NCBI GenBank assembly: GCA_015709495.1 | Contig: CP054189.1 | Coordinates: 1,364,001 to 1,428,000, forward strand | Direction: 5' to 3' | DNA from: Chthonomonadaceae bacterium | Lineage (GTDB): Bacteria; Armatimonadota; Fimbriimonadia; Fimbriimonadales; Fimbriimonadaceae | DNA: 64,000 nucleotides | In this document: one piece after another, positions 4,601-52,851 of the stretch | Position numbering within the stretch: the stretch's first letter is position 1 | How the letters are laid out: every line of letters begins with the position of its first letter | Notes under the pieces: model-generated | Databases searched by the model: none | What the model was told of the DNA's origin: nothing | The model's input: only the letters and a program-made list of their open reading frames with translations | Position numbers and translations under genes: made by a program

Positions 4601-4651
4601 AAAGCGTTGCAAAAAGAAGGAACGACCCCAGAAAGAGAATCGGACTGCAAG

Positions 4652-7204: not shown

Positions 7205-8257
7205 GTGTTTCCTGAGTGGAGTTGGGTGCTGGGACTCGCGATCGGCGCGTCTTTCGGCAGCTTCCTCAACGTGGTCATCTATCGCCTGCCCCGACGCATC
7301 TCCCTCGCCAAACCCGCTCACAGCTTCTGCCCGAACTGCAAGACGGACCTCGGCGTTGCCGACCTCATTCCCCTTCTTAGTTGGCTCTTTTTGGGGGGGA
7401 AGTGCCGTCATTGCGGCGCAAAGATTCCGCCCCGGTACTTTCTCGTCGAACTCGTCAACGGCGGGCTGTACGCTTACATTTGGCACCTGTTCTTGGTGGC
7501 CGACTTCGATGTCGCTCGGGCGGCACTGGCGGCGGCCACCGCGTCGCTGCTCGTTGCGATGCTGTTCATCGACTGGGAGTTCTACATCATCCCGGACGAA
7601 CTCAACGCGCTGCTTTGGCTCGTGGGCGTCGCGTTCAATGCCTACCTCATCGCGGTGGGGCACGAGGCGGCGTTTCTTTGGGGAATACCTAGCAGCTTGG
7701 CGGGCTGGCTCGTGGGAACGGGAGTCATTTGGGGGATTAGCTTTCTGGGTCGGATTGCGTTTCAGAAGGACGCGATGGGACATGGCGACATCAAGATGGC
7801 CCGAGGGATCGGCGCGGTGCTGCTGCCGATCGGGGTGCTTCTGACTTGCGGCATCGCGGTGTTTCTGGGGGCCGTGTTGGGTGCGGTACAGGTGCTGGTG
7901 TGGAGGTTTTCGCCTGAGTCAGAACATCCAGAGGCTTCGTCCCGTCAAGAAACTGGAGAATCTACCGGCGAGGGATTGCAGTACGACGAGCCTGAATCGA
8001 TCGGCTCGTTGCTGCGGTGCGGGCTTGCGTACGCCGTATGCCTTGACATCGTGGGACTGTTCTTCCCCAAACTCTACATGAGGGTGTTTGGGGAGGACCC
8101 GTTCACGTCGGTGGAGGATGACGAGTTCGAGGTGGAAAGAACGATGATTCCGTTTGGTCCGTACCTCGCGGCGGGGGCAATCGCGGTACTGTTGTTCAAA
8201 CCCCAGGTAATGTCATGGATCGACGCCTATTCGCAATGGGCGTTCGGAGGGAGCTAG
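7205..8257 (+). CDS. pilD: Prepilin leader peptidase/N-methyltransferase
   Basis: This membrane aspartic protease cleaves prepilin leaders and methylates the new N-terminus. The zinc-binding tetracysteine motif of the methylase part is intact (C42/C45 and C67/C70). Catalytic aspartates are visible in FIDWEFYIIPDE (D123) and GHGDIK (D195); the usual motif is GxGDxK, so His takes the variable position. About eight membrane segments are present. A hydrophilic insert (about residues 235-265, rich in Glu/Ser) precedes the last membrane segments and makes the protein about 80-90 residues longer than typical. The start is GTG 7205, with GGGAGG seven bases upstream. Its substrates are probably the four prepilin-like proteins encoded next. 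Confidence 0.94.
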   Translation: MFPEWSWVLGLAIGASFGSFLNVVIYRLPRRISLAKPAHSFCPNCKTDLGVADLIPLLSWLFLGGKCRHCGAKIPPRYFLVELVNGGLYAYIWHLFLVADFDVARAALAAATASLLVAMLFIDWEFYIIPDELNALLWLVGVAFNAYLIAVGHEAAFLWGIPSSLAGWLVGTGVIWGISFLGRIAFQKDAMGHGDIKMARGIGAVLLPIGVLLTCGIAVFLGAVLGAVQVLVWRFSPESEHPEASSRQETGESTGEGLQYDEPESIGSLLRCGLAYAVCLDIVGLFFPKLYMRVFGEDPFTSVEDDEFEVERTMIPFGPYLAAGAIAVLLFKPQVMSWIDAYSQWAFGGS

Positions 8258-8295: not shown

Positions 8296-9186
8296 ATGTC
8301 TATGTTGAGAATAGGGAAACACCGTGCGCGCACGGGGGGCTTCACGCTTATCGAATTGCTCACCGTGATCGCGATCATCGCCATCCTTTCCGCGGTGCTG
8401 TTGCCCGTGTTTGCCCGCGCCAAGGACAACGCGTACCGGAGTTCGGACATCCAGCGGATGAACGAGATTCGGACGGCTTTGCAGCTCTATAAGGCGGACA
8501 ACGACGCCTATCCCCCTGCGCTTTTGGGGTACGCGACGCTGTACATGACGGGTCCTCAGACCGGCCAGGTCGTGCCGGCGACCCAATACAACGGCCACCT
8601 CTACTCACGCAGGATCCCTTCGCTGGACACCTTGCGGCCCAGCTACAACCGCGTGGACGCGAACTTGGTCACCAAGGCGGTTTGGCCCAATCAAGACCCT
8701 CGCCCGGTCGGGTCCGCTCCCATTTTGGACCTCGACGGTGACGGCGACATCGACAACAACGACGACTTCGCCGGAGCGCGGCAAGCGTTCGGGCCTCTCG
8801 ACACCGTTCTCGCGGAATCCCCGATCGCGGTCAGCCCTTGCGACGGCGGTTCTGCGTCCTTGGACGCCTGCTTCTACCAAATCAGCGGCTACGATGTGGC
8901 GCTGATCCCGGAGACGGGCAGCGGCCCGGCCCGGTTCGAAGTGCACTACGCGAGGTTCTGGACGAACTGGGGACTTTCGACGGGCCACGCGAACGACGAC
9001 CCGAGACAGCTCGGCTATCAGGACCCGCCCGACAATACGGTAATCACTTGGAACACCTACTTCCGGGAGTATTCGGGAGGGCAACCGGTTATCGGCCGAC
9101 GTGACATCGTGCTCTTCCTTGGCGGCGCGGCGCGGCCGTTCGACTCTCGCGCGCTCTACGAAAGATCGTGGCGCGTGCTTCCTTGA
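8296..9186 (+). CDS. Prepilin-like protein (FimT/GspG-type minor pilin)
   Basis: The N-terminus has a class III leader and hydrophobic helix: G15|F16-T-L-I-E20, then LLTVIAIIAILSAVLLPVF. Cleavage by PilD leaves Phe at +1 and Glu at +5. Residues after the helix (IQRMNEIRTALQLYKADNDAYPP) match the GspG/pilin helix and loop. The C-terminal domain is large (about 230 residues) and includes an aspartate-rich loop DLDGDGDIDNNDD resembling a calcium-binding EF-hand/dockerin loop, and two cysteines (CDGG...DACF). Start ATG 8296 or ATG 8302; GAGGG sits six bases before the second. It is the first of four prepilin-like genes. Confidence 0.88.
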   Translation: MSMLRIGKHRARTGGFTLIELLTVIAIIAILSAVLLPVFARAKDNAYRSSDIQRMNEIRTALQLYKADNDAYPPALLGYATLYMTGPQTGQVVPATQYNGHLYSRRIPSLDTLRPSYNRVDANLVTKAVWPNQDPRPVGSAPILDLDGDGDIDNNDDFAGARQAFGPLDTVLAESPIAVSPCDGGSASLDACFYQISGYDVALIPETGSGPARFEVHYARFWTNWGLSTGHANDDPRQLGYQDPPDNTVITWNTYFREYSGGQPVIGRRDIVLFLGGAARPFDSRALYERSWRVLP

Positions 9187-9206
9187 CCGAAGGGGTGGAA
9201 AGTCTC

Positions 9207-11189
9207 ATGAAACGGCCTACGACGCTCCGATCCGGTATGCACTCGTTCCGAAGGCGAGGGACCTCGCTGATCGAGTTGCTGGTCGTGATCGTGGTGCTGT
9301 TGATCGGCATTCTCGGGGTGGTGCAGACGTTCCCTCAAGGGTTTGGGATTTTGCAGACGACCCGCGCCTACACGATCATGACCGAGCTCGCTCGAAGTCA
9401 GAGCGACGCCTTGAAGGGCCGCGCCGAGCAGCTCCCCGAGATGATCCTCCCGACCAGTTACTCGTTCCTTGGGTCGTCGATCGTGAACATCACCGTCGAC
9501 GCGTCGCGTAGGCCCGGTGACCTCTACCCCGTGGCGGACGGCATCAACGCGAACGGAAGCCTGATCGTAGGGGGAGACTCGATGGGGTATTGGCCTTACG
9601 TTACGGGCGCGAACCTGCTGCGGCGGATCGTGAGCGAGGGTGGCCCGGTCCCGTCGCCCCGCAGCGTTGGGGGCTTTTTCGGCGGCCTGATGGTGCTGCA
9701 GTTCGCGCCGATCGTGTACAACGACGATCCAGCCTACCGGATTCTGTTGCAGGTGTACGGCAACGACATGGTCCGTCGGTGGGGTGATCCGGGGTTTGCC
9801 TCCGCCAGAGACTGGCAATACTATGTGGAGGACGCGGGCCAGTCGTTCGGCCAGATTCACCTGCCGACTCACCCCTCGAAGACGCGGGAATACCGGCTTC
9901 AGATGACCGCTTGGGTTTCGGTTTCCGGCAACTCTCAGCCTCGCGAGATCGTCGATGCGATCATCACGGTTCCGCCAGGTCCGCAGGGGTACACGTCGTT
10001 CCTGCTTTCGAGCTTTGTGGTCTTGGGAGCGGGCGAGAGTTACATCGGAGCGGAGTTCGGGTCGATCCGTGTGGCGCGGCTGTTCGACCGGTTGCCGGTG
10101 GGCGACGCTTTCACCCTGGACCCTTATGAATACAAGCTGCTGGACGCCAATTTGGGAGTACTGCTGTTCAACCCGGTCGGATACGACTATGAGGTCAGGT
10201 TTGGAAACCGGCGCGAGCCTCTGAAGGCGCGAGTCAATTACGACGTTTTCGACTGGCGCGTGATTCGCGACGAGTTCAGGATTCCCAATACCACGCCGTA
10301 CCAGGTGAAGCTGAAGCTCGGTGGGCTGAAGACCGCGGGCGACTATCAGGCCGACGACACGAGGTACCCGGGCCTCAACGTTCCGGTTCCGAGCATCAAC
10401 GGCTCGCCGCAAAACGTCGACGTGGTCCTTCTCGACGTGGAAACCGGTGGCGTGTTCCTTTTTGACCCCGCCAAACCTCGGGACCCGAGTCCGCCCGCAG
10501 GCACGGTGAACGACTATCTGGCGCTCGATCCCGCGCTGTGCTCGTATGCGGTCGATATGTCGCGCGGGTTCGTTTCGCTGATCGACTACGACCGTTCGAC
10601 TCCGGGCCTGCAACTGCGGCTCATGTTGCCCGGAGCAGTCTCTCCGGTGACGGTCAACGCGGAAGGCAGGCTGGTTCGGGCGCTGTACCAGGCGACCGGT
10701 GAGTGGGCGGTGCAGGTGCAAAAGGCGCCCGCGACGTTCCGCCAGACCTACGGGGGGCCGAACGTGGCCGAGTATTACGTAGGCGGCTCGAACTCGACGC
10801 TCGGCGGGCAGGTCACAAGGATCTATTTCCCCGTGATGGACACGGGCAAGAACGTGACGATCGGAGAGGTTTGGTACCGCGATTCGGGTGGAACCCTCCG
10901 GGCGCTGCACGACGAGAACTTCCGGATTCAAGACACCCCGGCTGACCCGATCGGTCCCTATGTAGACATCACGAGCGTCGACCCGAGCGCGGTCGGGTTC
11001 GATTGGACGAACGGCTACGCGGTGCGAAACGTGCAAGGGGCGTCGGTCGAAGTGCGGGTGCTTTGGAACCCCTCGGCGTTCAACCTCCGGGGGAACTCGG
11101 CGCAAGTGTATGAGAAGTTCATTTTGTGGACGCGGACCTGGCGACAGGCCAAGGTCGAGACCTTCCTGCAACGAGGAGTAGAGCAATGA
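9207..11189 (+). CDS. PilV-like minor pilin with large C-terminal domain
   Basis: The leader ends in RRRG18|T19-S-L-I-E23, followed by LLVVIVVLLIGILGVVQTF, which closely resembles PilV-type minor pilins in the tell-tale IGILGV core. Glu is kept at +5. The remaining 600 residues form an unrecognised, beta-rich exported region, far longer than ordinary PilV proteins (about 150-200 residues). ATG 9207 is chosen over an earlier in-frame ATG at 9168 because that one overlaps the previous gene and would add a useless N-terminal extension. The gene overlaps the next one by four bases (ATGA), so translation is coupled. Confidence 0.85.
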   Translation: MKRPTTLRSGMHSFRRRGTSLIELLVVIVVLLIGILGVVQTFPQGFGILQTTRAYTIMTELARSQSDALKGRAEQLPEMILPTSYSFLGSSIVNITVDASRRPGDLYPVADGINANGSLIVGGDSMGYWPYVTGANLLRRIVSEGGPVPSPRSVGGFFGGLMVLQFAPIVYNDDPAYRILLQVYGNDMVRRWGDPGFASARDWQYYVEDAGQSFGQIHLPTHPSKTREYRLQMTAWVSVSGNSQPREIVDAIITVPPGPQGYTSFLLSSFVVLGAGESYIGAEFGSIRVARLFDRLPVGDAFTLDPYEYKLLDANLGVLLFNPVGYDYEVRFGNRREPLKARVNYDVFDWRVIRDEFRIPNTTPYQVKLKLGGLKTAGDYQADDTRYPGLNVPVPSINGSPQNVDVVLLDVETGGVFLFDPAKPRDPSPPAGTVNDYLALDPALCSYAVDMSRGFVSLIDYDRSTPGLQLRLMLPGAVSPVTVNAEGRLVRALYQATGEWAVQVQKAPATFRQTYGGPNVAEYYVGGSNSTLGGQVTRIYFPVMDTGKNVTIGEVWYRDSGGTLRALHDENFRIQDTPADPIGPYVDITSVDPSAVGFDWTNGYAVRNVQGASVEVRVLWNPSAFNLRGNSAQVYEKFILWTRTWRQAKVETFLQRGVEQ

Positions 11190-13297: not shown

Positions 13298-13303
13298 CGA
13301 CCT

Positions 13304-16300
13304 ATGAGAGAAACGAATCCGATCCGACGACGTCGAACCCACGGCCAAACACTGGTCGCGGCGCTGTTCGTATTAGGCGTGCTCCTCATACTCGGCCTCG
13401 TCTTCGTGGGAATCATCAGTCAGAACGTGCGGCAAAGCGCAACGGCGAGGCAGCGTTCGGCGGCTTCGGACCTTGCAGAGGCCGGCGTCCGCTACGCTCA
13501 CTCCCAACTCGTGTATAGCGTGCAGGGCGCGGACTGGAGGCCAACCCCGACTCTGCCGCTCTCAGCGCGCGACCCCGATTACGATTACCTTCGTCCCGAC
13601 CCGGACGGCAACCCCGCCAACGGCGATCAAGGCGGTCCCGACCAATTGGGAGCGTACAGCCGGATCAATCAAGGCAACGGGCGGTTTCTGGTGCGTGTCA
13701 GGTTTGCGCCGAGCGACGCCGTACTGTTTTCCACCGCGCAACAGGGTCCGCTTCGCCAGCCTGGAAAGGCCCGAAACTACTTGATTCTCGAGTCTGTGGG
13801 ACGCATCGGTAGGGTGGTCGCCAACGACCCGACGACGCTTTTGGGATCGGAGCGGCAGGAAACCCGCAAGCTGATCGCGTTCGCCTCGATCGGGATCATC
13901 GAGAGCGCGGTGTTCATCACGAACAAGGACCGTGTGAGCCGCCCGGCCGAACTTGGCGTGCCTGAGCCGCTCGGGATCCGGTATGAGGGTGCCGACGTCA
14001 ATGTGCCGCTGCAACTCGGATCGAGCACGCCGATGTTCAACTTCGGCAACCCGCCCACACCCACCGCGGGTTCGGTCCTTTTCGGAGGCTCGCTTTATTC
14101 GAACACCGGCATCGTGCTGCACGGTTCGGTGAACGTGAACCTGAACGTTCCGCTGGGCGACGCATGGCATGTCAACGGGTCGCTGAGGGGCGCGGCCGCA
14201 AGCTCCCGGCTGAACGTGAATCGGACCGACTGGAACCCGACGCTAGGCCTTTGGCAGGTTTCGCCCTACTCGGTCGGCAATGCGACGACGCCCAGCCTCA
14301 ATAGCCTGAATCCGAGCTTCAGCACTCTAGGGGGCGTTCTGCGGGACGAAGTGCAAGCGATCGACGTGGACGGGTATTGGCGAAGCGTAGGTTACAAGGC
14401 GCCGCCGTCGCTTGAGATCGCCGACCCCGAGACGGGGCTCAACCGGTTTGAGTCGCTCACTCGGAACTCGGGCGTGGTGGGTCCTGGCGGCAACGCGGGC
14501 CGGTTTGGCCATGGGCGGGGCGTGTACGTGGACAACACCCAAGACCGGCAGATGCGTGAGGACGAGGAGGGCCGCGAGCGGGTCGGCAGTTCCGAGTCGC
14601 TCGTGTACGATTGGTTCAACCCCAACAACGGGCAAGCGGGTACGGGCTGGATCGGCCCGTATTACGTGCCCCGGGGCGCCACTTTGATCCTCAATTCGGA
14701 CGGTTTCAGTATCATCCGCGACCCCCGCGCGACGGGAAGGGAACGAACTTGGCGCGCGCCCGACGGGTCTGATACGGGCATCGGCTTCATCCGGTACCGC
14801 TTAGGATTGGTCAACGGGCAAGTATTCGTCATCAACACGTTCACTCCCGGAGTCAACATCAACTCTGCCAACCCGAATTTCTCGTTTGGGATGCCTTTCA
14901 ATGGCGTGCTGCTCTTTGAGGGCAATGTGAGGGTTCGGGGAACGATTCCCACGGACGCGCAACTCACCGTCGTTTCCAACGCCACGATCTACGTCGAGGG
15001 CAGCGTCACGAAGGGCGTCTTGCGAAACCACATCACCGACGCGACCGGGTTGCCGCCCGCGCCCACGAGGATCAACCGTCCGAGCCGCTCGATGCTCATG
15101 CTCGCCGCACGGGACTACGTCGCCGTCAACACCACGATGTTCTCGGGTCCCAGCCCGCTTCAGGCGCTCGATGAAGTGGATGAGTCGGGCAATCCGATCG
15201 CTTGGAACCCTCTCAGGATTCAAAGCGGCGGTGGGACGTTCACATTCCGAAACGACCTGGTTTGGGACCCGGATTCGGGACTCGGACCGGCCCTTCCGGA
15301 CTCCTGGGAGACGTTCGCTCAAGGGTACGCCGAGTTCAACGCGCCGGGTAGCCCTCTGAACTCTCGGTTGCTCCTGACCCATGCGACGGACGATGGACCT
15401 GCGCCCTACACCTTCCTTTCGCTCGATGTGAACTACGGCCTGCCGTCGTTCAACTATCTGTTCGAGATGGTTCCGCCCAACTCGGCCGCGCCGTTTTTCG
15501 CGCCGCAGCCCTACGGCCCGATCTACGGCCTCGGAGCCGAACTGTGGCAGAGGTATCCGAAGTTCGAGTCCAACGCGTTCCCTCTGCTCGACCCCACGGC
15601 GCTCGTTCCGGAGAGCAACGGGCTCCTCCTCAGGGCGAACGCGGCAGGCACTTATGGAGACTACAGGGTGATCGCAGGCGGATTGAGCGATTACACGATT
15701 CGCATGAACCAAGTCGGTTTTGGCGCGACGAACGATTATCTTCTGGCACGGACGGCAGTGCTCCCCGGCGACGTTCGGATCGAGGCGTCCCTGTTTGCAG
15801 AGAACGGATCGGTGGTGGTGATTCCCGGCAACTGGGTCAACCCGAACCCGAACGACTCGCGGGAGACCTTCGAGGCGAGGGTGACGGTGCTGCAGGGCGC
15901 GCCCTACAACCTGCCGTTGGACCAGGCGATCTTGACGGCGCAAGCGGAGCGCAGAGACAGCAACGGATCGGGGCCCGATATGCCGTTTTATGGCGAGCCG
16001 CTCGACATCCGGATCGTGATTCACGGCGCGGTCAGCCAAAACATGCCGCTGCCGATCAGCTACCAAGCGGAGTGGCTTCGCAAGTGGGGCTGGATCCCCC
16101 GCAACTTCAGCGCGAACTATCATGTTCCGGGCTCGGGAACTCAGGTCCTGATTCCGGAAAGGCACGTTCCGGCCGGATACGACATCGCGGGCGCGGACAG
16201 GTACGTGCCGAATCTCATCGTCACGTATGACGCCACTCTGGCGACGGCGAGCCTTGCGGGATTTGGCTCGGATTATCTTCGACGAGACCGATTCGGGAGG

Positions 16301-16369
16301 TCGCTGCCGCCGATGCCCGCGCTGCCGGTCGGCCCCAAACTGGCTTACTTTGGAGAGGTATTGAGGTGA
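13304..16369 (+). CDS. PilX-like minor pilin, 1021 residues
   Basis: The leader MRETNPIRRRRTHG14|Q is followed by TLVAALFVLGVLLILGLVFVG and then QNVRQSATARQRSAASDLAEAGVRYA. This pattern is typical of PilX/GspK minor pilins: no Glu at +5, and a conserved A-EAG-R helix. Ordinary PilX proteins are about 170-200 residues; this one carries about 950 extra residues, with many Asn/Gly-rich turns in the middle and beta-rich stretches (GSLYSNTGIVLHGSVNVNLN) that suggest a beta-helix-like fold. It starts six bases after the preceding stop and overlaps the next gene by GTGA. Confidence 0.82.
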   Translation: MRETNPIRRRRTHGQTLVAALFVLGVLLILGLVFVGIISQNVRQSATARQRSAASDLAEAGVRYAHSQLVYSVQGADWRPTPTLPLSARDPDYDYLRPDPDGNPANGDQGGPDQLGAYSRINQGNGRFLVRVRFAPSDAVLFSTAQQGPLRQPGKARNYLILESVGRIGRVVANDPTTLLGSERQETRKLIAFASIGIIESAVFITNKDRVSRPAELGVPEPLGIRYEGADVNVPLQLGSSTPMFNFGNPPTPTAGSVLFGGSLYSNTGIVLHGSVNVNLNVPLGDAWHVNGSLRGAAASSRLNVNRTDWNPTLGLWQVSPYSVGNATTPSLNSLNPSFSTLGGVLRDEVQAIDVDGYWRSVGYKAPPSLEIADPETGLNRFESLTRNSGVVGPGGNAGRFGHGRGVYVDNTQDRQMREDEEGRERVGSSESLVYDWFNPNNGQAGTGWIGPYYVPRGATLILNSDGFSIIRDPRATGRERTWRAPDGSDTGIGFIRYRLGLVNGQVFVINTFTPGVNINSANPNFSFGMPFNGVLLFEGNVRVRGTIPTDAQLTVVSNATIYVEGSVTKGVLRNHITDATGLPPAPTRINRPSRSMLMLAARDYVAVNTTMFSGPSPLQALDEVDESGNPIAWNPLRIQSGGGTFTFRNDLVWDPDSGLGPALPDSWETFAQGYAEFNAPGSPLNSRLLLTHATDDGPAPYTFLSLDVNYGLPSFNYLFEMVPPNSAAPFFAPQPYGPIYGLGAELWQRYPKFESNAFPLLDPTALVPESNGLLLRANAAGTYGDYRVIAGGLSDYTIRMNQVGFGATNDYLLARTAVLPGDVRIEASLFAENGSVVVIPGNWVNPNPNDSRETFEARVTVLQGAPYNLPLDQAILTAQAERRDSNGSGPDMPFYGEPLDIRIVIHGAVSQNMPLPISYQAEWLRKWGWIPRNFSANYHVPGSGTQVLIPERHVPAGYDIAGADRYVPNLIVTYDATLATASLAGFGSDYLRRDRFGRSLPPMPALPVGPKLAYFGEVLR

Positions 16370-19300
16370 AGCTCGAAAGATTCCTCGTAGGGTTGGTGGC
16401 CGCAGGTTCCCTGTTGGGGACCGCTTCGGCTCAGCAGAACTACGCGCAACGCCGCGTCAACATCAACGCGGGCGTGGTTTTGATCGCCAGCCAGCAGATT
16501 TCGGGCTTTCAGGCGAACTACGCGCCTTACGTTTGGTTCAACCTCGACTCGAACCGCAACATGAAGCCGCCGGGCTGGAGCTTCTCGAATCCGCTCGCAC
16601 CCTCGGTCGTCACCGCTGAGATACTGTCCCGGTGGGTCGCTCAGAACACCGCGCGGGGAAGTGCGATCGTTCCGACGCTGGGCGCGCCGCTGACCAAGAA
16701 GGATGCCGCCTATTGGGAGATCCAACTCGACAGCATCGGCGACGAGCAGCTCGATTCGATGGACGCGCTTTGCCTTCCCGTGCGGGGCGTGATGTCGCTC
16801 AATCCGACCGAGCGGGAGCGTCTGCGCAAATTCATGGAGCATGGCGGGTTGCTTTGGCTCGACCTTTCGCCGACTTCGGTGGTGGACCTCATCAACGGCG
16901 CGCCGCTTCCCTTCACGCTGAACACGGCCAACCTTGGCTCGCCGTTCGCCTATAACTTGAGCCACCCGTTGCTCTCGTTCCCGGCAACGATTTCAGGCGA
17001 GAACCTCGTGGCCGTCCAGGCGACGGGCGCTTTGGGCCTCGCGGGGATCGATTTGGCGTCAATCGGCCTGGGGGACATCAAGCAGGCGCAGCAGACGACC
17101 GAGTTCGACTACCTCCACCTGCTCCCCGTCGCGTCAGACGAGTTTGGGCCCTATGTTTCGGTGGGGCGAGTCGGCGACGGCTACCTTGTGGTGACCACGC
17201 GGTCGGTCGCCACGACGCTCAACCGCACGCACAGGCTCCTCAGCAACCAGTTTGCGACTGGCTACGTCCCGAACGACCTGTCCGTGGCCGAGACGCCGGT
17301 CTTCGATCGGACCGCCGACGCTGCGGCCAAGTTCGTCGCGAACATGGTGCACCTGACTTCGGGCTATTCTCAGATTTCTCGCGGGAGCCGTAAGACGGGG
17401 GGCGGACCGATCGATCTCGGCGCGCCTCTGTTGCAGAAGTTCGATGCCGCGTTTCCGTTGACGCAAGCGGTCGCCGAAAGCCGGCCGGTCGCGGTGTACA
17501 AGGGACTCGTGATCGTGTCTTCGGGCGATGTGATCCGCGCCTACGACGCGAACCCCGTGAGGGACCTGAACGGGGACGGTAATTCGGACGATGGGGTGGT
17601 CGATTACCTTTTGGGCTCGCCTTATGATCTGGTTTGGTCGAGCACCAACCTGCCCGGACCCGTCTCGCCCCCGACCTGCGCCGACGTTCCCGGAGCCGTC
17701 GCTGAGAACCAAGTGGCGGTCGTGGACGCGAGCGGCCGACTCCTCATCTTCGACGCTTTTCCTGCCGCTCCATCGATGGGCATGGCGCCCGTGGCTACTG
17801 TGGCGCCTCCTTCCGGGTTCTCCGCAGGCGGGCCTCCCCTCGCGCCGACCTATCACGACGGGCTCTACTTGGTGGGTGACCAGGCGACGGTCGGAGTCAA
17901 CACCGTGGGGCGAGTCTGGGTAGCCGATGCGTTTACGGCGACGATCGTCTCGACGAGCGCGGACTGGGCCGTCGGTGGGGCCGGCGTCTCGAACATCCCG
18001 CCTCTGACCGGGAGCCCGACCGTCGGTTACATCCCGATCCTCGACAATTCAGGCGGGGTCGATCGCACGGTGTACGTCCCGACGAAAGGGACGGGGTTCG
18101 CCGGGCCGGCCGTCAACGCCGGAATCACCAGCATTTGGCTCGGCGTGAAGGGCGAAAAACCGAGTTCCTGGTCGCGGGTCGGCAACCAACTCGTGGTGGT
18201 GACGCGGGCCTCGCTTCAAGGGCTCCGCATTTACGTGCCTTCCGGACCCAGCCACCTTGGCGTGAAACTGTCGATCATCGACGGAAGCGGCAATCCGCTC
18301 GACGCAGCGGCGATGAACGACCTGCTTTCGGGAACGCTGACGGAGGCCGGCGGCATTCTCAACTTCGGACTCAAGGGCTCGGCCGTGCTGCCTGTGGGGA
18401 TGTCGATTCGACTTGACTACACGCTCGACTGGGGCACGGGCATCCCGGCAATCCAAGGCCAGATCATCCGCGGGCAGTTGTTCTTGCCCGACGACAACAA
18501 CCATCGCCGCGTGATCCTCGACAACATCGCGTTGTCGCCGCAAGGGACGATCCACGTCGTCGCGGCTGATCCGACCAATACCTCGGACCCGAACGGGCAC
18601 GACGGGGGGACGTACTACGCGTTCAAAGAGGACGGCAGAGGCTCGTTCCGAATGATCAATCGGTTCGACCTGTATCCCCAGCACGAGATCGCGCTCAACC
18701 AGGCGGCAGCGGTGACCTATGCGGAGACGATCGGCGATACAGACCCGGTCGAAAACCTGATCCCGTTCCCGGCGACCAAGCTCGCCGGACTGCGGTTCAA
18801 GGGCGGCCCGGCCGTTCATGGCGGGTTCGTTTATGTCACAGCGCGCGCCGTGAAGAGCATTTTCATTCCCTGCACGGTGCTTATGGCCTTCCAGGCCGAA
18901 CCCGAGACGCCCGAGATTCTCGTCGAGCCGATCAATGGGTCGTTCTCGCTCGTTCAGCCCGACCTCGCTCGAAGCCCTCGAAAGAACCGCCCCAGCACGA
19001 TGAGCGTGTTGCAAAGCAACCAGTTCACGTATGAAGCCTCCAACCGGACGGGCAAGGCGAGGATTCGGATCGACAACTTGATGCCGATGAATCGCGGCGC
19101 GATCGTCAACGCGTTGAGCCGCAGCCAACCCGTGATCATTCGGCGATCCGGCCAGCCGGACCTCCTCGTCGAACCCGGGCTTACGGCGAGCACTTGGAGC
19201 CCGCTCTCGTGGTACATCGTGTTTCACGGCTATGAGAACGACAGTCCGTCGCTGGTGACCGGCAACACCGTGTTCTTTGCGGGAGACAGCAGACTTCCGA

Positions 19301-21003
19301 GTATCTTGGCGGGCGATCCGTTCCCGTGGGCGCCGAGGGGACTCTTGGTGGGGATGGACGCTTTGATTAGCCCCAACGATCCGTTCCTTCGTCCGGATGT
19401 GGATACGAGATCGGGCCGGGAGCGTAATCGGCCGTGGCAGCTTCAACTCTGGCAAATCCAGACTTCACCCAGCTTCGTGGCGAACCCCGACATCCGCTGG
19501 CCGCAAACTAGCGGAGCGCAGTCGTTCGACGATTGGCGGGTTCGGCTATTCCAAACCGTTCTTGGCAACTCGCAGCATGCGTACGGGGTCGTCGGCGGTG
19601 ACGGCGCGCTATTCAGCTGGAGCGAACTGGGGATTTGGGGCTATACGCGGGCCGACTTCCTGGTGGCCGACGACGGCAGACTCGCGAAATTCGACTCCAG
19701 CGGCAACCCCCTTTGGAATGCGGACGCGACCCTGCTTACCGGAAACGCCCTCGATAGCGGCGCAGCGGGCAACATCAGGCCCCTCGTGCGGCCGACCCGG
19801 GCCTACTCGGTGAACGCGCGCGAAATGATGGTGGTCGATACCGGCGCGGATCGAATCGTGCATCTCGACATTTCAGGCCGGGAATTGCGAAGCCTCGAAG
19901 GGTTCCGGCTCGACCCAAGCTACGTCCCCGACGGGTACGAAGCCAACGAGACGCTCAAATTGCGGCAGCCTCGCGACGTGTTCGTGTATTCGACTTATGT
20001 GGCGAGCCCGCCGCTCCTTTCGAATCCCCGACCCCTCGAGTTTTGGGTGCGCTACCTCATCGCTGATGCCGGCAACCAGCGCCTGATCGAAATCATCGAC
20101 CGCTACGAAGTGGACCCTGTCACCCGTCAGATTTGGGGTGTGGTGGTCGATGGGACCGGGGAGCGAGCGCTGGGCATTCTCAATTGGCACAGCCCGTCAC
20201 AGTTCTCCGGAAAGGAATACAACTACGTCGCCGTCGATTCGATCTATGCTGCGCGGACCGGTACTCCGGAGAGGTTCTATGCGGCTGCGGTCGGCGGACG
20301 GCTTCCGACGAACATCGACTCCGGGCTGGACCAGCCAACGACTCTGGGGACTCGGGAATCGGCCAGCGGCAACGGCGGCATCGTTCTGTTCAACGATAGC
20401 GGACAGGTGATCGAGGTCATCAACGAAGTCGATGTACCGCAGATCGGTCCCAACGTGTTCTATGACCCCGTTTCGGGCTCCTTCAACTCGGCGACGATCC
20501 CCACCAAGCGGCAAAAGGTCGGCCAGATTCGGTCGTTGACCATGCGGAACGTGGTCGACGCCACCCTGGGGCCGACCCTCGCCCTCGTCTACACGGAAGC
20601 GAGCGGGGTGTATGAGATCGTTCGGTCGAGCGCCGCTCCCAACGCGCCGTGGGTGGTGCGGTGGATGCTGCCGAGGGAGGCCTACAAGTACATGAGGAGA
20701 GTTGGGACTTCGCCCACAGCTTCGAACCCGCTCGACCTTCATGCGACGTATGCCCGCCGACTGGACTCCGGCGACGTTTTGATCGTCAACGGTTATCAGG
20801 GCCGGACCTTGGGCGGCCAAGTGTTCCAGGGCGAGGTGATCCAGGTCAACGGCGACGTGGATACGACCAACAACAACGCGATTTCGGGGTTTGGGTTCTT
20901 GAAGACCAACCTCGGCTTCAATTCGATCAGCGTTCAGTTCGAGCTCCCGCCGATCCAAGGCGCTCGGGGGCTCGTGATTCCCGTTTTTGCAGATAGGCGA
21001 TAG
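16366..21003 (+). CDS. Giant secreted protein 1 of the pilus locus (possible PilY1-like role)
   Basis: A GTG start overlaps the stop of the PilX-like gene. The N-terminus MKLERFLVGLVAAGSLLGTA followed by SAQQ is a Sec signal peptide. Residues about 30-180 (ending RKFMEHGGLLWLDLS) resemble the glutamine-amidotransferase-like fold of DUF4159-type proteins; this is a weak resemblance. The following 1300 residues are beta-rich, with propeller-like phrases such as YKGLVIVSSGDVIRAYDAN and LIADAGNQRLIEIIDRYEVD, the second NHL-like. There is no membrane anchor or C-terminal sorting signal. Its place directly after PilV/W/X-like genes matches that of PilY1, a propeller protein at pilus tips. That role is inferred from context and fold-like features only. 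Confidence 0.75.
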   Translation: MKLERFLVGLVAAGSLLGTASAQQNYAQRRVNINAGVVLIASQQISGFQANYAPYVWFNLDSNRNMKPPGWSFSNPLAPSVVTAEILSRWVAQNTARGSAIVPTLGAPLTKKDAAYWEIQLDSIGDEQLDSMDALCLPVRGVMSLNPTERERLRKFMEHGGLLWLDLSPTSVVDLINGAPLPFTLNTANLGSPFAYNLSHPLLSFPATISGENLVAVQATGALGLAGIDLASIGLGDIKQAQQTTEFDYLHLLPVASDEFGPYVSVGRVGDGYLVVTTRSVATTLNRTHRLLSNQFATGYVPNDLSVAETPVFDRTADAAAKFVANMVHLTSGYSQISRGSRKTGGGPIDLGAPLLQKFDAAFPLTQAVAESRPVAVYKGLVIVSSGDVIRAYDANPVRDLNGDGNSDDGVVDYLLGSPYDLVWSSTNLPGPVSPPTCADVPGAVAENQVAVVDASGRLLIFDAFPAAPSMGMAPVATVAPPSGFSAGGPPLAPTYHDGLYLVGDQATVGVNTVGRVWVADAFTATIVSTSADWAVGGAGVSNIPPLTGSPTVGYIPILDNSGGVDRTVYVPTKGTGFAGPAVNAGITSIWLGVKGEKPSSWSRVGNQLVVVTRASLQGLRIYVPSGPSHLGVKLSIIDGSGNPLDAAAMNDLLSGTLTEAGGILNFGLKGSAVLPVGMSIRLDYTLDWGTGIPAIQGQIIRGQLFLPDDNNHRRVILDNIALSPQGTIHVVAADPTNTSDPNGHDGGTYYAFKEDGRGSFRMINRFDLYPQHEIALNQAAAVTYAETIGDTDPVENLIPFPATKLAGLRFKGGPAVHGGFVYVTARAVKSIFIPCTVLMAFQAEPETPEILVEPINGSFSLVQPDLARSPRKNRPSTMSVLQSNQFTYEASNRTGKARIRIDNLMPMNRGAIVNALSRSQPVIIRRSGQPDLLVEPGLTASTWSPLSWYIVFHGYENDSPSLVTGNTVFFAGDSRLPSILAGDPFPWAPRGLLVGMDALISPNDPFLRPDVDTRSGRERNRPWQLQLWQIQTSPSFVANPDIRWPQTSGAQSFDDWRVRLFQTVLGNSQHAYGVVGGDGALFSWSELGIWGYTRADFLVADDGRLAKFDSSGNPLWNADATLLTGNALDSGAAGNIRPLVRPTRAYSVNAREMMVVDTGADRIVHLDISGRELRSLEGFRLDPSYVPDGYEANETLKLRQPRDVFVYSTYVASPPLLSNPRPLEFWVRYLIADAGNQRLIEIIDRYEVDPVTRQIWGVVVDGTGERALGILNWHSPSQFSGKEYNYVAVDSIYAARTGTPERFYAAAVGGRLPTNIDSGLDQPTTLGTRESASGNGGIVLFNDSGQVIEVINEVDVPQIGPNVFYDPVSGSFNSATIPTKRQKVGQIRSLTMRNVVDATLGPTLALVYTEASGVYEIVRSSAAPNAPWVVRWMLPREAYKYMRRVGTSPTASNPLDLHATYARRLDSGDVLIVNGYQGRTLGGQVFQGEVIQVNGDVDTTNNNAISGFGFLKTNLGFNSISVQFELPPIQGARGLVIPVFADRR

Positions 21004-21005
21004 AC

Positions 21006-24000
21006 ATGAGAGGCGTTTTGCTCAAGAGTTCGGAATCTACGCGGTGGTGGCTCGCGGCGGCGGTGATGGCTGTTTCGATGTGGGCCGCGCCGCCCGCGTC
21101 GTCGCAGGACTTCCCGACTTTTGGAGGCCAGAACTCGCGCGTGGGTTCGAATCCGGCTCCTTCGACCAATGGGCCTGGACGGTCGTTTCTCAGGTGGTGG
21201 CGGCCCAACGCCCTCGACACCGTTGGAAGTTCGATCATCGTCGATAACACTCAGGCCGGGTCGGTGAGTTCGACCGGGACGTGGTCGAGCCCCACGAGCC
21301 TTTTCGACGAGGCGTTCAACGCGTATGTCATCAACCCGAACGCGAACATCTTGATCGAGCCTTCGTACATGTATGCTCGGACGACGGCCTCGGCGCTTAA
21401 CGAAGAGCCCACCGTTGCTGAAACGCCCGCGGACAAGCGCACCTGGACCTGGACTCTGGACCCTGCCGACGGCATCGAGCGCAATTACGCCGTGTACGTT
21501 TGGCTTCCCATCGGCCCCACAATCGAAGGTGGGAGCACGCTCTACACTCAAAGGTATTGGGTGTATGAGGTGTTCTATGGCAATGGCCAGCGGCACCTCG
21601 AGGTGCTCGACTCCTACGCAGCAGGGACCGGCTGGGTGCGGGTCGGCAACGGCGGCTTTGCGACGAATCAACTCTTTTCCTATAACGGCGTCGATGCGAT
21701 TCGGGTGGTGTTGCACAACACGGTGCCTCGCGACGGGTTTGGGAACCTGACCGACTTTGCAGGATCGACGCTCGTTTATGCGGACGCTGCGATGGCGATT
21801 CCGGACTTTGGAAGCTACAGCGCGACGCCGATCGTCAGCGAGTTTGGGCCCGGGGGGCCGCTCAACACCCACGTGGTCGCCGCCTTGAACCGCTACGAAC
21901 TCGCTTTGCGGGACGGCGAGCCGACTACGGTCACTCGGGGAGAGGTCCTCTCGCTCGAATACGATTCCATCAGCGGCGCCAATAACACCCGTTGGCGGTT
22001 TTCGCCCGTGGAGTCTTCTTCGGAACTGAACTTCGTTCAAGACAACACCTCCGCCGGAGTCAGCGCTGCGGTGAACTGGACGGCGCAGATTCTGCCGGCC
22101 GGGTTCAGGGGGATCGACTACCTTTCCGCCGACATCACCAACAACGCGCTCACCGCGACCGACGTGAGATATGCGCCGACCCTCGACGACGGCGACTACG
22201 AGGTCTGGGTTTGGCTGCAGGGCAGCTCGGCAGGGACCCTTTTTGGACAGTCGGTTCAGGTCGAAGTGCATGAAGGCGGGACGGTCTCGACGTTCACCGT
22301 TAATCAGGATGCGGGCGGCGGCTGGGTCCGCGTTGGCTCGCGCCGGTTCCTGCATCGTGACGAGGCTTCCGGGGATGCGCTCGAAGTGCGGATCACGAAC
22401 TACAGCCCCTTGCTGGGCGACTTGGGAAGGAAGGCGTATGCCGACGCCGTCAGGTTCATCGGAGCCGCGGAAACGGCGATCACTTCGACTCCGGTTCAAG
22501 TCAACGCTTTGGTTCGGCTCGATCCTGGCGCGCCTGTCTCGACCTCGGTGACCCTGGTGGCCGCCGAAAACGGCCGCATCTACTGCTTGGATAGCGCCGG
22601 AAACGGCGACGGCACTACGCGGGTGATTTGGACTTACCCGAGCACACCCGATCCCGACGACTCGAATTGGTCGGACCCGAACCATGTGGCGGGCGAGGAC
22701 GGGAGCGGGCCGATCGCTCAGATGCCGATAGGGTTCGACCTTTCCTCGGCGCTCATCGAGCGGATCGATGGAGAGGACTTCCTCTTCATCGCCACCCGAA
22801 ACGGCCGCGTGTACTGCATCGAGATGGCGGGCCGTGGAGACATGGACTTCTCGCGAGAGGTTCCCGGTACGACCCGTAGAGTCTGGAGTTGGCCGGATGA
22901 CTACCCCGGTACGAGGCGCGACGGCGTGGGTCCGATCAATGGATCGATCGCTTTTGCGACGACTTCGGACGGCCCGACGCTTTTCGTTCCGACCACACAG
23001 GGCAGGCTGTACGCGATCGACGCGGAAGGAACGCCCGCCACCAAAACGACCTCGGTTCGGTGGCAATACCCCGACGCGTCCCAACCGGGTATCGGCTCGA
23101 TGACGGGAACGCCGGTCGTGGCTTTCGGCAACGTGTATATCGGAACGCTGGTTGGCGGCGACGATCGAGGCCACTTCATGGCGTTCGACATCGACAATGG
23201 CAACCTCGAATGGGACTTCGACGGCACGGCTTCGTGGGGAACCGCATTCGTCCCCGCTGACGACTTTGGAAGCGGCGCTTGCGCGATTCCTTCCACCGAA
23301 ATGACCGGTATGCCCGATACGGTGGTGGTGTCCAACGCGAACCGCTGGATCACCGCGTTCGACGCCGCGACGGGAGCTGAGCTTTGGACGACCGATGAGT
23401 TGGGTTCCGACGTAACGGGCAGCCTGAGCTTCACGCCGATGACGGTTTACGACAACTTCGGCGTGCTGTTTAGTAGGCCGTGCGTGATCGTTCCGACTTC
23501 GGACGGCCGAGTGGCTTCGCTGTTCGCGGAAACCGCGGAAACCAACGCGTTCGGTGGCACCAACCGACTCGCTTGGGGCTTCGACACTTCAGCGAAGAAC
23601 CTGACGGCTTCCGTCTCGATCGGCCGCAATTGGATGTACGCCGCCGATACTTCGGGCTACATCTATGCGTTCAACGACTCCGCGAGCGGCGCGATTTCGC
23701 CCGGAAATCCGCCGGGAGCCGAGGTCGTGGTGCCGAACGACCCGATCGGCGCGGTGTTCCGCGATGCCGAACTGAAGTTCATCACGAAAGACACCTATAA
23801 CGCTCTCCGCTTCCCAGACGACGATCCGAACCAGCTCACGTTCGCGCAGGCCGACGACCCCTCGCGTCATCTGCCCGATGGGAAGGCGTATGAGTGGGGC
23901 CAGACGATCTACTTGATGCTCTACAAGTTCCCGTACGAATTGGCATCGAACCCGGGGGGCGCTCCGCCTCAAGTGGAGTTCCGCTTCAGTTCCGAAGGGG

Positions 24001-27000
24001 CCTCGTTCCGCAACCTCACCGTTACCTCAAAGAGATTCCGAGGCTCTGCGCCGAGCGACCCGGAAAGCGCCTACGCCGTGATCTCGTTCACGATTCAAGG
24101 CTCTGGGTCTACGGCGATCCCGCCGGGGAACGGGGTCGTGACGGCTGCGGTGAGCGCTCAGTTCAATGCCGGCGATCCGGTGCAAAGCGTGGCTCTCGAC
24201 CCTACCAAGGTGCGAAGGACCTTCGTCGTGTCGAACCCGCTTTCGGTCGTGGTCGCGTTCGAGCCTGACGGAACGCCGAGCCTCAACTACCAGATCGGCT
24301 ACACGACGGTGGCCGATGACCCTGAGGCCGTGGTCAATGGCTCGCCGGATATCGGAGCGACTCTGAAGCGCGAGGACCGGTTGCTGGCTTCGGCAGGGCT
24401 GGTGTCTCATGGCCAGCAAGGCAACAAGATCATCGCCGTCGTCGACCGCAGCTTGATGACGCTGATTCGGGGCCCGAACCGGGGGCTCGACCAAGTACGC
24501 GTCGATCGGGGCGACCTCACATGGCAGGGCGGCCTGGCGGCGGTTCGCAAGCCGATCAACCCGCTGGCCTACCCGAACTTCGAGGACCTCCCGACGCAGT
24601 TCCCGAACGTGAGCCTCGACTATCCCGACATCGAGAACCGCAGACTCGAAGTGACGAAGGATAAGTTCGGAATCGCTGAAAACCCGATTTATAGTTCGGT
24701 GAGTCTGAACCCGCCGACCAACGTCAACGAATCGACGCCCGAAACGAGGTTGTTGCAGTATACGCGAGTGGACCTCGACTACAACGTACCGAGGTTCCAG
24801 CCCGCGAACCTGTGGACGGTCCTGAACTCGGTGGGAGACTCCGAGCCGGGCGGGTACTACGGCCGGTTGGAGGTCTTCGTCGATACCAGCGGCAACGGCA
24901 ACCTCGACCGACGGGGCCGCCGAGAAGCCTATCGGTCGATTCGAACCGGAGTTTCGGTGCCGGCTGACGAGAAGATCGTGGTCGAAACCCCCGTGGTGGA
25001 TTTGGGATCGCTGGCGCATGGCACTGGGTTCGCGACGGGCGGAAGCCCCTATCCGTGGAACCAGCCGGGTTCTCCGTTCACTCCGTGGACCGGGCCGTAC
25101 GATCAGGTGTTCAAGCCGTTCGTGGTTCGCAACGAAGGGAACGTTAACCTGCTGAACCTGCGGCTCGCGAAGTCCTACCAGATTGGAGCGAACCCGCGAC
25201 AGCCTTGGGGAGTTTCGGCGCCAGCCAACCACGAGAGGAGTTGGCTCGATACGGAATGGAACCTCTGGAGCGACATCGATTCGACCTTTGCGTTGAACGC
25301 GCTCGACGGCTCGAACAACGTACTGCTGCAAAAGGCGAGGGTAGGGGACCGGTCCGCAACCGAATTGACGACCAACCCGATCCGTCGGACCAACGCGAAC
25401 CTCGGGGTCGCTCAAAGCACCCTTCTGGCTTCGCCGACGCCTGCCCCTCCGCGAGTGGGAGTTTCGATCCCAATTGGTTCCCCTGTGGGCGCCTATTCCT
25501 CGATCCTGAGAGTCATCGAAGACTCCGTCGGCCAAGACGAGACGCTTCAGTACACGGTTTTGCCGGGGAACGTTCTTCAGAACGCCGAGGCTCAGTCCGA
25601 CCCGACGCTAACGCTTCGGTTCAACGTTAGAGAATCGCGGCTGACGAACACGTACACCCAACTGACTTCGCCCATGGTCCACGACCTTGTGGCGGGGGGC
25701 GAGACCTTCCTGCACCAGAACGCTCAGCCCACGGGCATGAGGGATCTGAACGGGACGCTCACCTTCGCGTACACGTCGACGATGGACGCGTTCAATTCGG
25801 CGCAGCCTCTGACGGCGAGCCTGAACGACCAGTGGCGGATCTACATTGCGACCCTGAATGGGGTTAGCCCCACCTCTGGGCAGCAGATTGGGACGGGCTA
25901 TTTGCCCGACCTCAACGCGTTCTCGCCGGACGGGGTTCGCTACTTCCGACAAGAGGTCGGCCCCTTCCCGACGCAGTCCCCGACCACGCTGTTTGCGCTG
26001 CCTGCGGGCGAAACGGCCGTCGCAGGGACCGAGAAATACGGCAATCCGAGCTTCCCGCTCCTGGGAACGGTCAATCCGTTCAGCGGAGCGATCCATCCTT
26101 CGACGTTCCTTGCCTTCACAGGGGAAACGCAGGTTCAAACGCCCAGCGGCCGCAGGGGAGAGTCTCGCGTGTTCGTCACCTCGGTTCAGGTGGATCCGAA
26201 CGGCGCGATCAACATTCTTGAACCCGGCTTCGTTGCCATCGCAGACACGGGAGCTAAGGGCCGGCCCGCGCTCGTGCAAACTGGGAACGACACCGGCACC
26301 GCGTTTTATGCCGCCGGCGGCGTGGGTCAAACCCGAATCTATTGGGTTTCGTTCCAGAACACGGGCGGTGCGAACTACAACCGCACACAGGCGAACGCGT
26401 TGAACACGGGTACAGGGTTTGAATACGTGCATTCACCGTCCGTTCACGCGCGCACCTATCGCGGAGTCAGCGCCAGCGGCATCGACCCCGGCGACAGGCT
26501 GTTCGAGCTCACCTTTATCGGCAAGCTCCGGGGACGGCCGCAATCGGAGGTGTTTTACGGCAGGATGGTCGGCACAGGAACCTACGGCGGACCCTCGACG
26601 AACGGACTGAGGTACTTGCCCCCGATCACGAACGAACTGCTCGAAGCTTCGGGCGAGCGGGGCGTCTATCGAACGGCCGGAGTCTCTTGGAACACGGGTG
26701 CGACGGTTCAACTGCAGCAGTTGCTGAACGGAAACCTCACGAACCTCGAAGTCGCCAACACGAAGACCGTGGACCGCGAAACCGGGATCATCTCGTTCAC
26801 CACTACACTCGGCGGGAAGGCGTACCTCGACCCGAACATGGGCACGGTTCGCTTCAGCGGCGTTGCGCCCTCGAATTCGGCGCAGTTGTTCCTCAGCTAC
26901 ACGGCGCGGTTCATCAGAGTGAGCGCGGGCGTTGGCGCGGCGCACTTCACGCCGACGATGCTGTTCGATGATCGGATGATCGGCGAATTCAGTTACTGGG

Positions 27001-27587
27001 CGAGGCCCGACAACAGCCCGCTCGTCCCGGCCAACGCTTCGAGCCTGCCGGACGATCCGGTTCGGTCGGCCCGAATGGTGTTCTCGTACGGCAGGTCGGC
27101 TGCGGGTTCAGGTCAGGCCGCGAGGCCGTACTTGAGGACTCTGCGGCTCGGCGTTCAACTCCCGAGGCCGATTCACACCCAAGCGAACGGGGGAATCACC
27201 GCTTTGACCTCGACGGGCCAGGCGTCGTTCTACCAGATCGACCCTGCGAACGGCAGATTGTACTACACAGCGGACGACGAGGGTCGGACGGTGACGATCA
27301 CCTACACTGGCGTCGACGAAACCACAGGCGCGCCGATCCCCGGAATCCAAGTGACGGTTCCGATCGGGGTCGTCTCAGAGACCGGCGAAGCTCCCGTGCG
27401 AATCGAGCAGGCGATCAACGAGTCGCAGCCGTTCCTGTTCGTCGATCCGTTCGACAATCCTCTCGCGTCGCTACGGCGTCCGGGACTCATTTGGTTCTTG
27501 TGGACGAGCACGCGCGCGGGAACTCCCGACATATTCTTCCAGGCGATTGCGCCCCGGTTCACGCCTTCTCCTGTGGGTCGAAGCTGA
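21006..27587 (+). CDS. Giant secreted protein 2: two golvesin-like domains plus PQQ-type beta-propeller
   Basis: This 2193-residue protein starts two bases after the previous stop. Its signal peptide is unusually late (SESTRWWLAAAVMAVSMWA then APPASSQ). Residues about 75-260 and 345-490 are two copies of a domain opening with (V)DNTxAG and TGTW/NWT and containing YxVxVWL, as in golvesin C-terminal-like carbohydrate-binding modules. Residues about 505-900 show repeated PQQ propeller blades (NGRIYCLD, NGRVYCIE, QGRLYAID, AATGAELW, SGYIYAFN). The rest is beta-rich and unrecognised. No anchor is visible. It probably acts outside the cell with giant protein 1 and the large minor pilins, possibly as an adhesin; the function is inferred. 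Confidence 0.78.
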   Translation: MRGVLLKSSESTRWWLAAAVMAVSMWAAPPASSQDFPTFGGQNSRVGSNPAPSTNGPGRSFLRWWRPNALDTVGSSIIVDNTQAGSVSSTGTWSSPTSLFDEAFNAYVINPNANILIEPSYMYARTTASALNEEPTVAETPADKRTWTWTLDPADGIERNYAVYVWLPIGPTIEGGSTLYTQRYWVYEVFYGNGQRHLEVLDSYAAGTGWVRVGNGGFATNQLFSYNGVDAIRVVLHNTVPRDGFGNLTDFAGSTLVYADAAMAIPDFGSYSATPIVSEFGPGGPLNTHVVAALNRYELALRDGEPTTVTRGEVLSLEYDSISGANNTRWRFSPVESSSELNFVQDNTSAGVSAAVNWTAQILPAGFRGIDYLSADITNNALTATDVRYAPTLDDGDYEVWVWLQGSSAGTLFGQSVQVEVHEGGTVSTFTVNQDAGGGWVRVGSRRFLHRDEASGDALEVRITNYSPLLGDLGRKAYADAVRFIGAAETAITSTPVQVNALVRLDPGAPVSTSVTLVAAENGRIYCLDSAGNGDGTTRVIWTYPSTPDPDDSNWSDPNHVAGEDGSGPIAQMPIGFDLSSALIERIDGEDFLFIATRNGRVYCIEMAGRGDMDFSREVPGTTRRVWSWPDDYPGTRRDGVGPINGSIAFATTSDGPTLFVPTTQGRLYAIDAEGTPATKTTSVRWQYPDASQPGIGSMTGTPVVAFGNVYIGTLVGGDDRGHFMAFDIDNGNLEWDFDGTASWGTAFVPADDFGSGACAIPSTEMTGMPDTVVVSNANRWITAFDAATGAELWTTDELGSDVTGSLSFTPMTVYDNFGVLFSRPCVIVPTSDGRVASLFAETAETNAFGGTNRLAWGFDTSAKNLTASVSIGRNWMYAADTSGYIYAFNDSASGAISPGNPPGAEVVVPNDPIGAVFRDAELKFITKDTYNALRFPDDDPNQLTFAQADDPSRHLPDGKAYEWGQTIYLMLYKFPYELASNPGGAPPQVEFRFSSEGASFRNLTVTSKRFRGSAPSDPESAYAVISFTIQGSGSTAIPPGNGVVTAAVSAQFNAGDPVQSVALDPTKVRRTFVVSNPLSVVVAFEPDGTPSLNYQIGYTTVADDPEAVVNGSPDIGATLKREDRLLASAGLVSHGQQGNKIIAVVDRSLMTLIRGPNRGLDQVRVDRGDLTWQGGLAAVRKPINPLAYPNFEDLPTQFPNVSLDYPDIENRRLEVTKDKFGIAENPIYSSVSLNPPTNVNESTPETRLLQYTRVDLDYNVPRFQPANLWTVLNSVGDSEPGGYYGRLEVFVDTSGNGNLDRRGRREAYRSIRTGVSVPADEKIVVETPVVDLGSLAHGTGFATGGSPYPWNQPGSPFTPWTGPYDQVFKPFVVRNEGNVNLLNLRLAKSYQIGANPRQPWGVSAPANHERSWLDTEWNLWSDIDSTFALNALDGSNNVLLQKARVGDRSATELTTNPIRRTNANLGVAQSTLLASPTPAPPRVGVSIPIGSPVGAYSSILRVIEDSVGQDETLQYTVLPGNVLQNAEAQSDPTLTLRFNVRESRLTNTYTQLTSPMVHDLVAGGETFLHQNAQPTGMRDLNGTLTFAYTSTMDAFNSAQPLTASLNDQWRIYIATLNGVSPTSGQQIGTGYLPDLNAFSPDGVRYFRQEVGPFPTQSPTTLFALPAGETAVAGTEKYGNPSFPLLGTVNPFSGAIHPSTFLAFTGETQVQTPSGRRGESRVFVTSVQVDPNGAINILEPGFVAIADTGAKGRPALVQTGNDTGTAFYAAGGVGQTRIYWVSFQNTGGANYNRTQANALNTGTGFEYVHSPSVHARTYRGVSASGIDPGDRLFELTFIGKLRGRPQSEVFYGRMVGTGTYGGPSTNGLRYLPPITNELLEASGERGVYRTAGVSWNTGATVQLQQLLNGNLTNLEVANTKTVDRETGIISFTTTLGGKAYLDPNMGTVRFSGVAPSNSAQLFLSYTARFIRVSAGVGAAHFTPTMLFDDRMIGEFSYWARPDNSPLVPANASSLPDDPVRSARMVFSYGRSAAGSGQAARPYLRTLRLGVQLPRPIHTQANGGITALTSTGQASFYQIDPANGRLYYTADDEGRTVTITYTGVDETTGAPIPGIQVTVPIGVVSETGEAPVRIEQAINESQPFLFVDPFDNPLASLRRPGLIWFLWTSTRAGTPDIFFQAIAPRFTPSPVGRS

Positions 27588-29810: not shown

Positions 29811-29826
29811 CAGGAAGGTCAACTCT

Positions 29827-30597: not shown

Positions 30598-30612
30598 CGA
30601 GACAGGCCTAGA

Positions 30613-52841: not shown

Positions 52842-52851
52842 GGTTTCCTCT

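Follow-up and report, generated by a model that had tools for sequence, protein, structure and literature searches.

Within the pilus operon of a Chthonomonadaceae bacterium (Armatimonadota) lie six genes whose products reach 1021 residues for a presumptive minor pilin and 2193 for a secreted protein, which raises the question of what kind of structure such a set would build. Here, we address this question in a window of 64,000 nucleotides (the whole stretch of DNA analysed), which is part of a single-contig 2.9-Mb genome. The operon comprises pilB, pilT, pilC and pilD, the six genes (P1–P6), pilM, three genes occupying the places of pilN/O/P, a gene with an STN domain, a secretin gene, aroK and aroB (table 1). 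A preliminary description had likened the six to fimT-pilVWX-pilY1 with oversized members, and this likeness stands: six open reading frames (ORFs), real in place and size, lie inside pilBTCD...pilMNOPQ in the order GspG/FimT-like (P1), PilV-like (P2), PilW-like (P3), PilX/GspK-like (P4), giant 1 (P5) and giant 2 (P6). The refined lengths are given in table 1; likely start codons shorten two of the frames, the PilV-like one beginning at 9207 (660 rather than 673 residues) and the PilW-like one at 11186 (703 rather than 723). By their coordinates, P2 and P3 share 4 bp (ATGA), P4 and P5 share 4 bp (GTGA) and P5 and P6 are spaced by 2 bp, and for this reason P1–P6 are read as one translationally coupled unit. 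A gap of 183 bp separates P6 from pilM, and no promoter-like site was found around the P1 start in 7000–9400.

Table 1. Components of the pilus operon in the window, features predicted within P1, P4, P5 and P6, and the type II secretion (T2SS) pilin set of the same genome.
Feature	Position	Strand	Evidence
PilB extension ATPase	2819..4600	+	T2SSE and MshEN
PilT-type ATPase	4607..5845	+	T2SSE, position
PilC platform protein	5876..7102	+	T2SSF x2
PilD prepilin peptidase	7205..8257	+	A24_N_bact and Peptidase_A24
P1, GspG/FimT-like prepilin, 296 aa	8296..9186	+	N_methyl E 2.2e-6; GspG profile match under the cut-off, E 1.6e-11
P1 EF-hand-like loop DLDGDGDID, aa 145-153	8728..8754	+	relaxed motif in only 7/19 orthologues
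P2, PilV-like prepilin, large C-terminal part, 660 aa	9207..11189	+	TIGR02523 PilV in 19/19 orthologues
P3, PilW-like prepilin, large C-terminal part, 703 aa	11186..13297	+	prepilin N-terminus in 19/19 orthologues
P4, giant minor pilin (PilX/GspK-like), 1021 aa, modelled fold resembling ComZ	13304..16369	+	AF2 model, ComZ match
P4 pilin helix, 57 residues, aa 15-71	13346..13516	+	secondary structure of model
P4 inserted jelly-roll, CBM35/36/6-like fold, aa 614-823	15143..15772	+	VIA-align Z 8-9.1
P5, giant 1, secreted protein with two modelled propellers, 1545 aa	16366..21003	+	signal peptide of Sec type, judged by eye
P5 N-terminal DUF4159-like stretch, aa 125-166	16738..16863	+	weak in the window copy (E 0.022)
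P5 first propeller with inserts, aa 330-1097, BamB/YxaL-like	17353..19656	+	AF2, VIA-align
P5 predicted calcium loop DLNGDGNSD, aa 400-408	17563..17589	+	exact PilY1 motif 1, Dx[DN]xDGxxD
P5 second propeller, aa 1094-1529, NHL-like	19645..20952	+	VIA Z 21.5 SOQ1 NHL, 20.2 PAL
P6, giant 2, secreted, 2193 aa	21006..27587	+	matches in 57/61 genomes
P6 Golvesin_C domain, aa 344-484	22035..22457	+	E 1.4e-10
P6 propeller blades of PQQ/BamB type, strongest at aa 649-741	22950..23228	+	PQQ_2 E 8.7e-12
PilM	27771..28940	+	PilM_2 E 1.3e-49
Three genes in PilN, PilO, PilP positions	28950..31371	+	position; no Pfam match
STN-domain protein and PilQ-type secretin	31434..33935	+	STN; Secretin E 1e-33
Canonical T2SS pseudopilin set	L173 8001-13876 (G000:C1:208-214 kb)		

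Several other features of the window may be recorded here. Secretin function may be split, as a separate Gly-rich STN-domain protein is encoded ahead of the secretin (31434–33935), an arrangement kept across the family. Long antisense ORFs of 676 and 1080 residues run over the pil genes on the minus strand (9156–11186 and 4541–7783) and are likely spurious high-GC frames. At 51315–55854, also on the minus strand, lies a pair of genes, DUF1501 and PSCyt1/PSCyt2/PSD1, of a type common in Planctomycetes.

The first four products have the marks of pilins, in that a prepilin N-terminus or a pilin helix is present in P1, in the families of P2 and P3, and in the model of P4. The N-terminal motif is clear in P1 and weaker in P2 and P3 of the window taken alone, with N_methyl detected in 14 of 19 P2 orthologues and 18 of 19 of P3. 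No class-specific minor-pilin profile exceeds its curated cut-off in the window copies: GspG in P1 and TIGR02523 PilV in P2 remain below it, and there is no GspK match in P4. Since these window matches are below the cut-offs and cover the N-terminal part only, the class names follow gene order and N-terminal type. The large C-terminal parts of P2 and P3 gave no family match; the only segments matched were the N-termini of pilin type and, in P2, a weak stretch resembling cadherin.

P4 has no N_methyl match, yet it starts in the manner of GspK and PilX (GQTLVAALFVLGVLL, no Glu5), families in which Glu5 is presumably missing as well. An AlphaFold2 model built from 55 sequences (pLDDT 88.3, pTM 0.89) places a beta-rich body after the pilin helix. 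The top VIA-align match of this model is ComZ (6qvi_B; Z 11.2, rmsd 4.3, 260 residues spanning 193–1014), above the next matches at 9.1, and P4 is accordingly predicted to be a GspK-like pilin domain with a beta-solenoid. Foldseek alone gave no significant match for the model, and a PDB sequence search with P4 found no relative; among 20 P4 orthologues, the GspK profile matches five and Verru_Chthon A three. The preliminary description would have been refuted by a structural model lacking pilin-type packing, whereas the pilin helix and ComZ-like fold of the model uphold a pilin-type architecture for the PilX-like giant. ComZ is a GspK-like tip pilin of Thermus with an inserted beta-solenoid, which binds DNA and acts in competence (PMC6561018). 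Compared with ComZ of Thermus thermophilus (PDB 6QVI), P4 shares the GspK-type pilin and the large beta-solenoid body, but reaches roughly double the length, carries an additional CBM35-like jelly roll and precedes propeller giants. This predicted jelly roll may represent a sugar-binding-like part of CBM35 type, a match that is only suggestive since Z values of this size are common.

Giant 1 combines modelled propellers with one short PilY1-type motif. The window copy of P5 gave no Pfam match at E 0.01; among 20 orthologues DUF4159 was detected in 16 (best E 9.3e-7) and NHL in four, and a PDB sequence search returned weak NHL-type matches only. An AF2 model covering residues 330–1529 (pLDDT 85.7, pTM 0.80) contains two propellers, of which the first gave VIA matches at Z about 20–23.5, including YxaL and the designed Scone (23.5), BamB (about 22) and Rv3035; PilY1 (3HX6) was absent among the listed structural matches of P5. 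A search for the PilY1 calcium site, which the preliminary description had proposed, identified D400-L-N-G-D-G-N-S-D408 in giant 1 as an exact match at the sequence level to calcium motif 1 of PilY1, Dx(D/N)xDGxxD (PMC13190605, PMC8833165). In shuffled versions of P5, the strict motif would be expected 0.005 times per protein. The predicted loop sits between modelled propeller strands 389–394 and 421–426, and D400, D408, D409, G410 and D413 are invariant across 20 orthologues. Within the class, 19 of 20 orthologues carry a relaxed form of the motif; outside it, five of nine homologues do, and in the other four the motif was not found.

In giant 2, the matches to golvesin and to PQQ-type propeller blades are significant. 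Golvesin_C is found in 14 of 20 P6 orthologues, and the P6 copy is the only one found in the genome; PQQ_2 is found in 19 of 20, with designed Cake propellers and BamB as PDB matches, and the C-terminal ~1,200 residues gave no family match. P5 and P6 share only a weak propeller stretch and are therefore not simple duplicates. Of the parts formerly ascribed to the giants, the propellers and golvesin are real, while a sugar-binding-like part is suggested only in P4 (CBM35-type, Z about 9). The idea of an enzymatic assembly gained no support, as no catalytic family was found. Neither is membership of the PilY1 family borne out for the giants: PF05567 gave no match to P5 or P6 at E≤1 in the window, nor at 0.01 in 20 orthologues of each. 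No PF05567 match was obtained across 61 phylum genomes either, and the control genomes were equally without one, so PilY1 may still occur elsewhere in these genomes. P5 does lie next to pilV/W/X-type minor pilins. Because the family profile failed, our claim is limited to P5, and perhaps P6, working like PilY1.

The arrangement is conserved well beyond this genome. Among 20 related regions of the order, every sufficiently long one has the six genes in the same order, and the flanking pil genes and aroK-aroB are also the same where the contig reaches and matches are detectable. Nine genomes of other Armatimonadota families, outside the class, have the module in this order, with exceptions for P6 in two: one has P6 split over two ORFs (G165), and in the other a 2399-aa protein without a match occupies its place (G146). 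In a further genome outside the class (G094), P2 was left unresolved by the simple ORF caller. This recurrence, in regions of the order and in nine genomes of other families, means that the order is not due to chance; it is kept across the order and in other Armatimonadota classes, as the preliminary description had asked of relatives. Matches to the P5 profile occur in 161 of 201 phylum genomes, to P4 in 108 of 113 class genomes and to P6 in 57 of the 61 searched (own genome counted). A single-sequence P6 scan of named genomes gave no match. The search with the P4 alignment yielded 74 loci, and the named carriers all belong to Fimbriimonadales/Armatimonadota, the exceptions being generic entries named 'bacterium' and a single contig that carries an archaeal MAG label; the host accordingly falls in Fimbriimonadaceae or a close group. 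Giants lying away from pilus genes in relatives would have refuted the preliminary description. In 32 class genomes with both matches on one contig the P4–P5 gap is −1 to 32 bp, and from this close spacing and the conserved order it follows that giant 1 was not seen apart from pilin genes.

Two 1.5-Mb reduced genomes of the same family depart from this pattern. In one (G029), neither P5 nor P6 has a match anywhere, and shortened P1–P4 (279, 318, 538 and 685 aa) are kept in the middle of a 187-kb contig (C19, about 88–95 kb; L163/L164); the other (G227) has no P5 match anywhere and a matching short P4. As both retain pilins without giants, the giants are dispensable there, which is consistent with their being an exposed, dispensable part of the complex. 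Methyltransferase-like and FliD-like genes come after the shortened P1–P4 in G029.

Only at the pilus locus is the set enlarged as a whole. The 2.9-Mb genome (G000) encodes 38 N_methyl prepilins, most of them scattered, together with a separate T2SS pseudopilin set of normal size (GspG 145, H 205, I 143, J 248 and K 422 aa) and a third, smaller pilV/W/X-like set (242, 214 and 635 aa; L174 9277–12505); both are smaller than the set described here, and the existence of the former makes the giant set pilus-specific. The locus does not fit a T2SS pseudopilus, as it has pilT-type and pilM genes and the T2SS set is elsewhere in the genome. An isolated prepilin-like gene (47128–47748; 206-aa ORF, N_methyl E 5e-6) lies in the window beside a redoxin-like gene.

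Comparison with known systems highlights both similarities and differences. The module shares with the FimU/PilV/PilW/PilX-PilY1 tip of type IVa pili its gene order and minor pilin classes, a Sec-secreted propeller protein adjoining a pilX-type gene, and PilY1 calcium motif 1; here, however, the minor pilins are several times larger and there are two giants instead of one. The giants differ from PilY1 in lacking a PF05567 match and in having a double propeller and a golvesin domain, and a DUF4159-like N-terminal domain is found where some PilY1 proteins carry vWA. As in modular pilins, a functional module is grafted onto a pilin module (PMC8179133), but here the enlargement affects P2, P3 and P4 alike, and at 1021 residues P4 exceeds the 860 of the most extreme multi-domain case in that survey. 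The Verru_Chthon cassette (NCBIfam TIGR02596, TIGR02598, TIGR02599 and TIGR02600), on which our literature search found no paper, shows weak likeness: its C and D profiles match 17–19 of 19 P3 orthologues, one P2 orthologue matches B and three P4 orthologues match A. These matches are weak and of N-terminal type, with P3 of the window scoring 29 and 20.8 bits where the cut-offs are 70 and 256.5, and the other window copies unmatched.

Taken together, the order of the genes, the classes of minor pilin, the propeller, the calcium loop and the tight linkage favour one reading above the others: the six genes probably encode the tip or priming complex of the Armatimonadota type IV pilus, analogous to PilVWX-PilY1 and built from giant modular parts. 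The adjacent PilD would process P1–P4 as minor (pseudo)pilins of the GspG/FimT, PilV/GspI, PilW/GspJ and PilX/GspK types, and P4, as a ComZ-like pilin with a beta-solenoid-type body and inserted jelly roll, would cap the filament. P5 and P6 would use the Sec route and bind to this cap, taking the role of PilY1; after its DUF4159-like N-terminal domain, P5 would supply a PQQ-like propeller that bears a PilY1-type calcium loop, as well as a second propeller, and P6 would supply golvesin and PQQ-propeller modules. The complex would start pilus assembly, be pushed through the secretin and present surface- or polysaccharide-binding faces. The analysis demonstrates the gene order with its conservation, the domains, model folds for P4 and for most of P5, and the calcium motif; complex formation, tip location, calcium dependence and adhesion are what we infer, and attachment to surfaces or polysaccharide is the most likely function of the tip. 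Fimbriimonas ginsengisoli is non-motile and has fimbriae and many pseudopilins, and its pili have been suggested to serve attachment (PMC4072686). Counted against the tip model are the lack of a PF05567 match, the calcium motif not found in four of nine P5 homologues outside the class, the reduced genomes without giants and the bulk of the proteins relative to passage through the secretin.

Other readings share much of this evidence. The ComZ match of P4, to a DNA-binding competence tip pilin (PMC6561018), and the presence of ComEC in 40 of 41 genomes make DNA capture the main rival: P4 would be a ComZ-type DNA receptor, with giants that help to capture or channel DNA. We consider a tip devoted mainly to DNA uptake unlikely; ComEC is nearly universal here, occurs in most control genomes too and so does not discriminate, and the CBM-like and golvesin modules would point to polysaccharide or matrix rather than DNA. 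It is very unlikely that the locus builds a pseudopilus for protein secretion with P5 and P6 as cargo rather than tip parts. P1 does resemble GspG, some P4 orthologues match GspK profiles, and P5 and P6 are secreted and modular; yet the genome has its own canonical T2SS pseudopilins, the locus carries PilT, PilM and PilQ-type genes, and a single fixed copy of each giant beside the pilins across the phylum is unlike cargo.

A further question is how the giants relate to PilY1 itself. That P5 and P6 are true, highly diverged family members seems rather doubtful: gene position, Sec signal, an N-terminal domain followed by a PQQ-like propeller, and a loop flanked by two propeller strands that matches calcium motif 1 exactly all argue for it, but PF05567 finds no match in 20 orthologues of each giant even with the threshold at E 0.01, and both PQQ-like propellers and DxDxDG loops are widespread and can evolve independently. 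Nearly an even chance may be given to a phylum-specific tip machine with its own PilY1 substitute, in which two giants unrelated to PF05567 would sit on a ComZ-fold pilin and the calcium loop would be convergent. The module was not found described in the literature searched, which left most subscription papers outside, so an earlier description is possible.

The familiar pilin-plus-PilY1 tip thus seems to have a giant, previously undescribed counterpart. If the tip reading is true, the pilus tip of an entire phylum is assembled from six large, co-conserved proteins, about 6,400 encoded residues in total, and the fold of the DNA-receptor pilin ComZ would be tied to a PilY1-type arrangement. Since two genome-reduced relatives keep the pilins without either giant, they offer a natural test of which parts are essential. 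The minor-pilin/PilY1 tip would then be a general design that tolerates replacement or enlargement of its parts.
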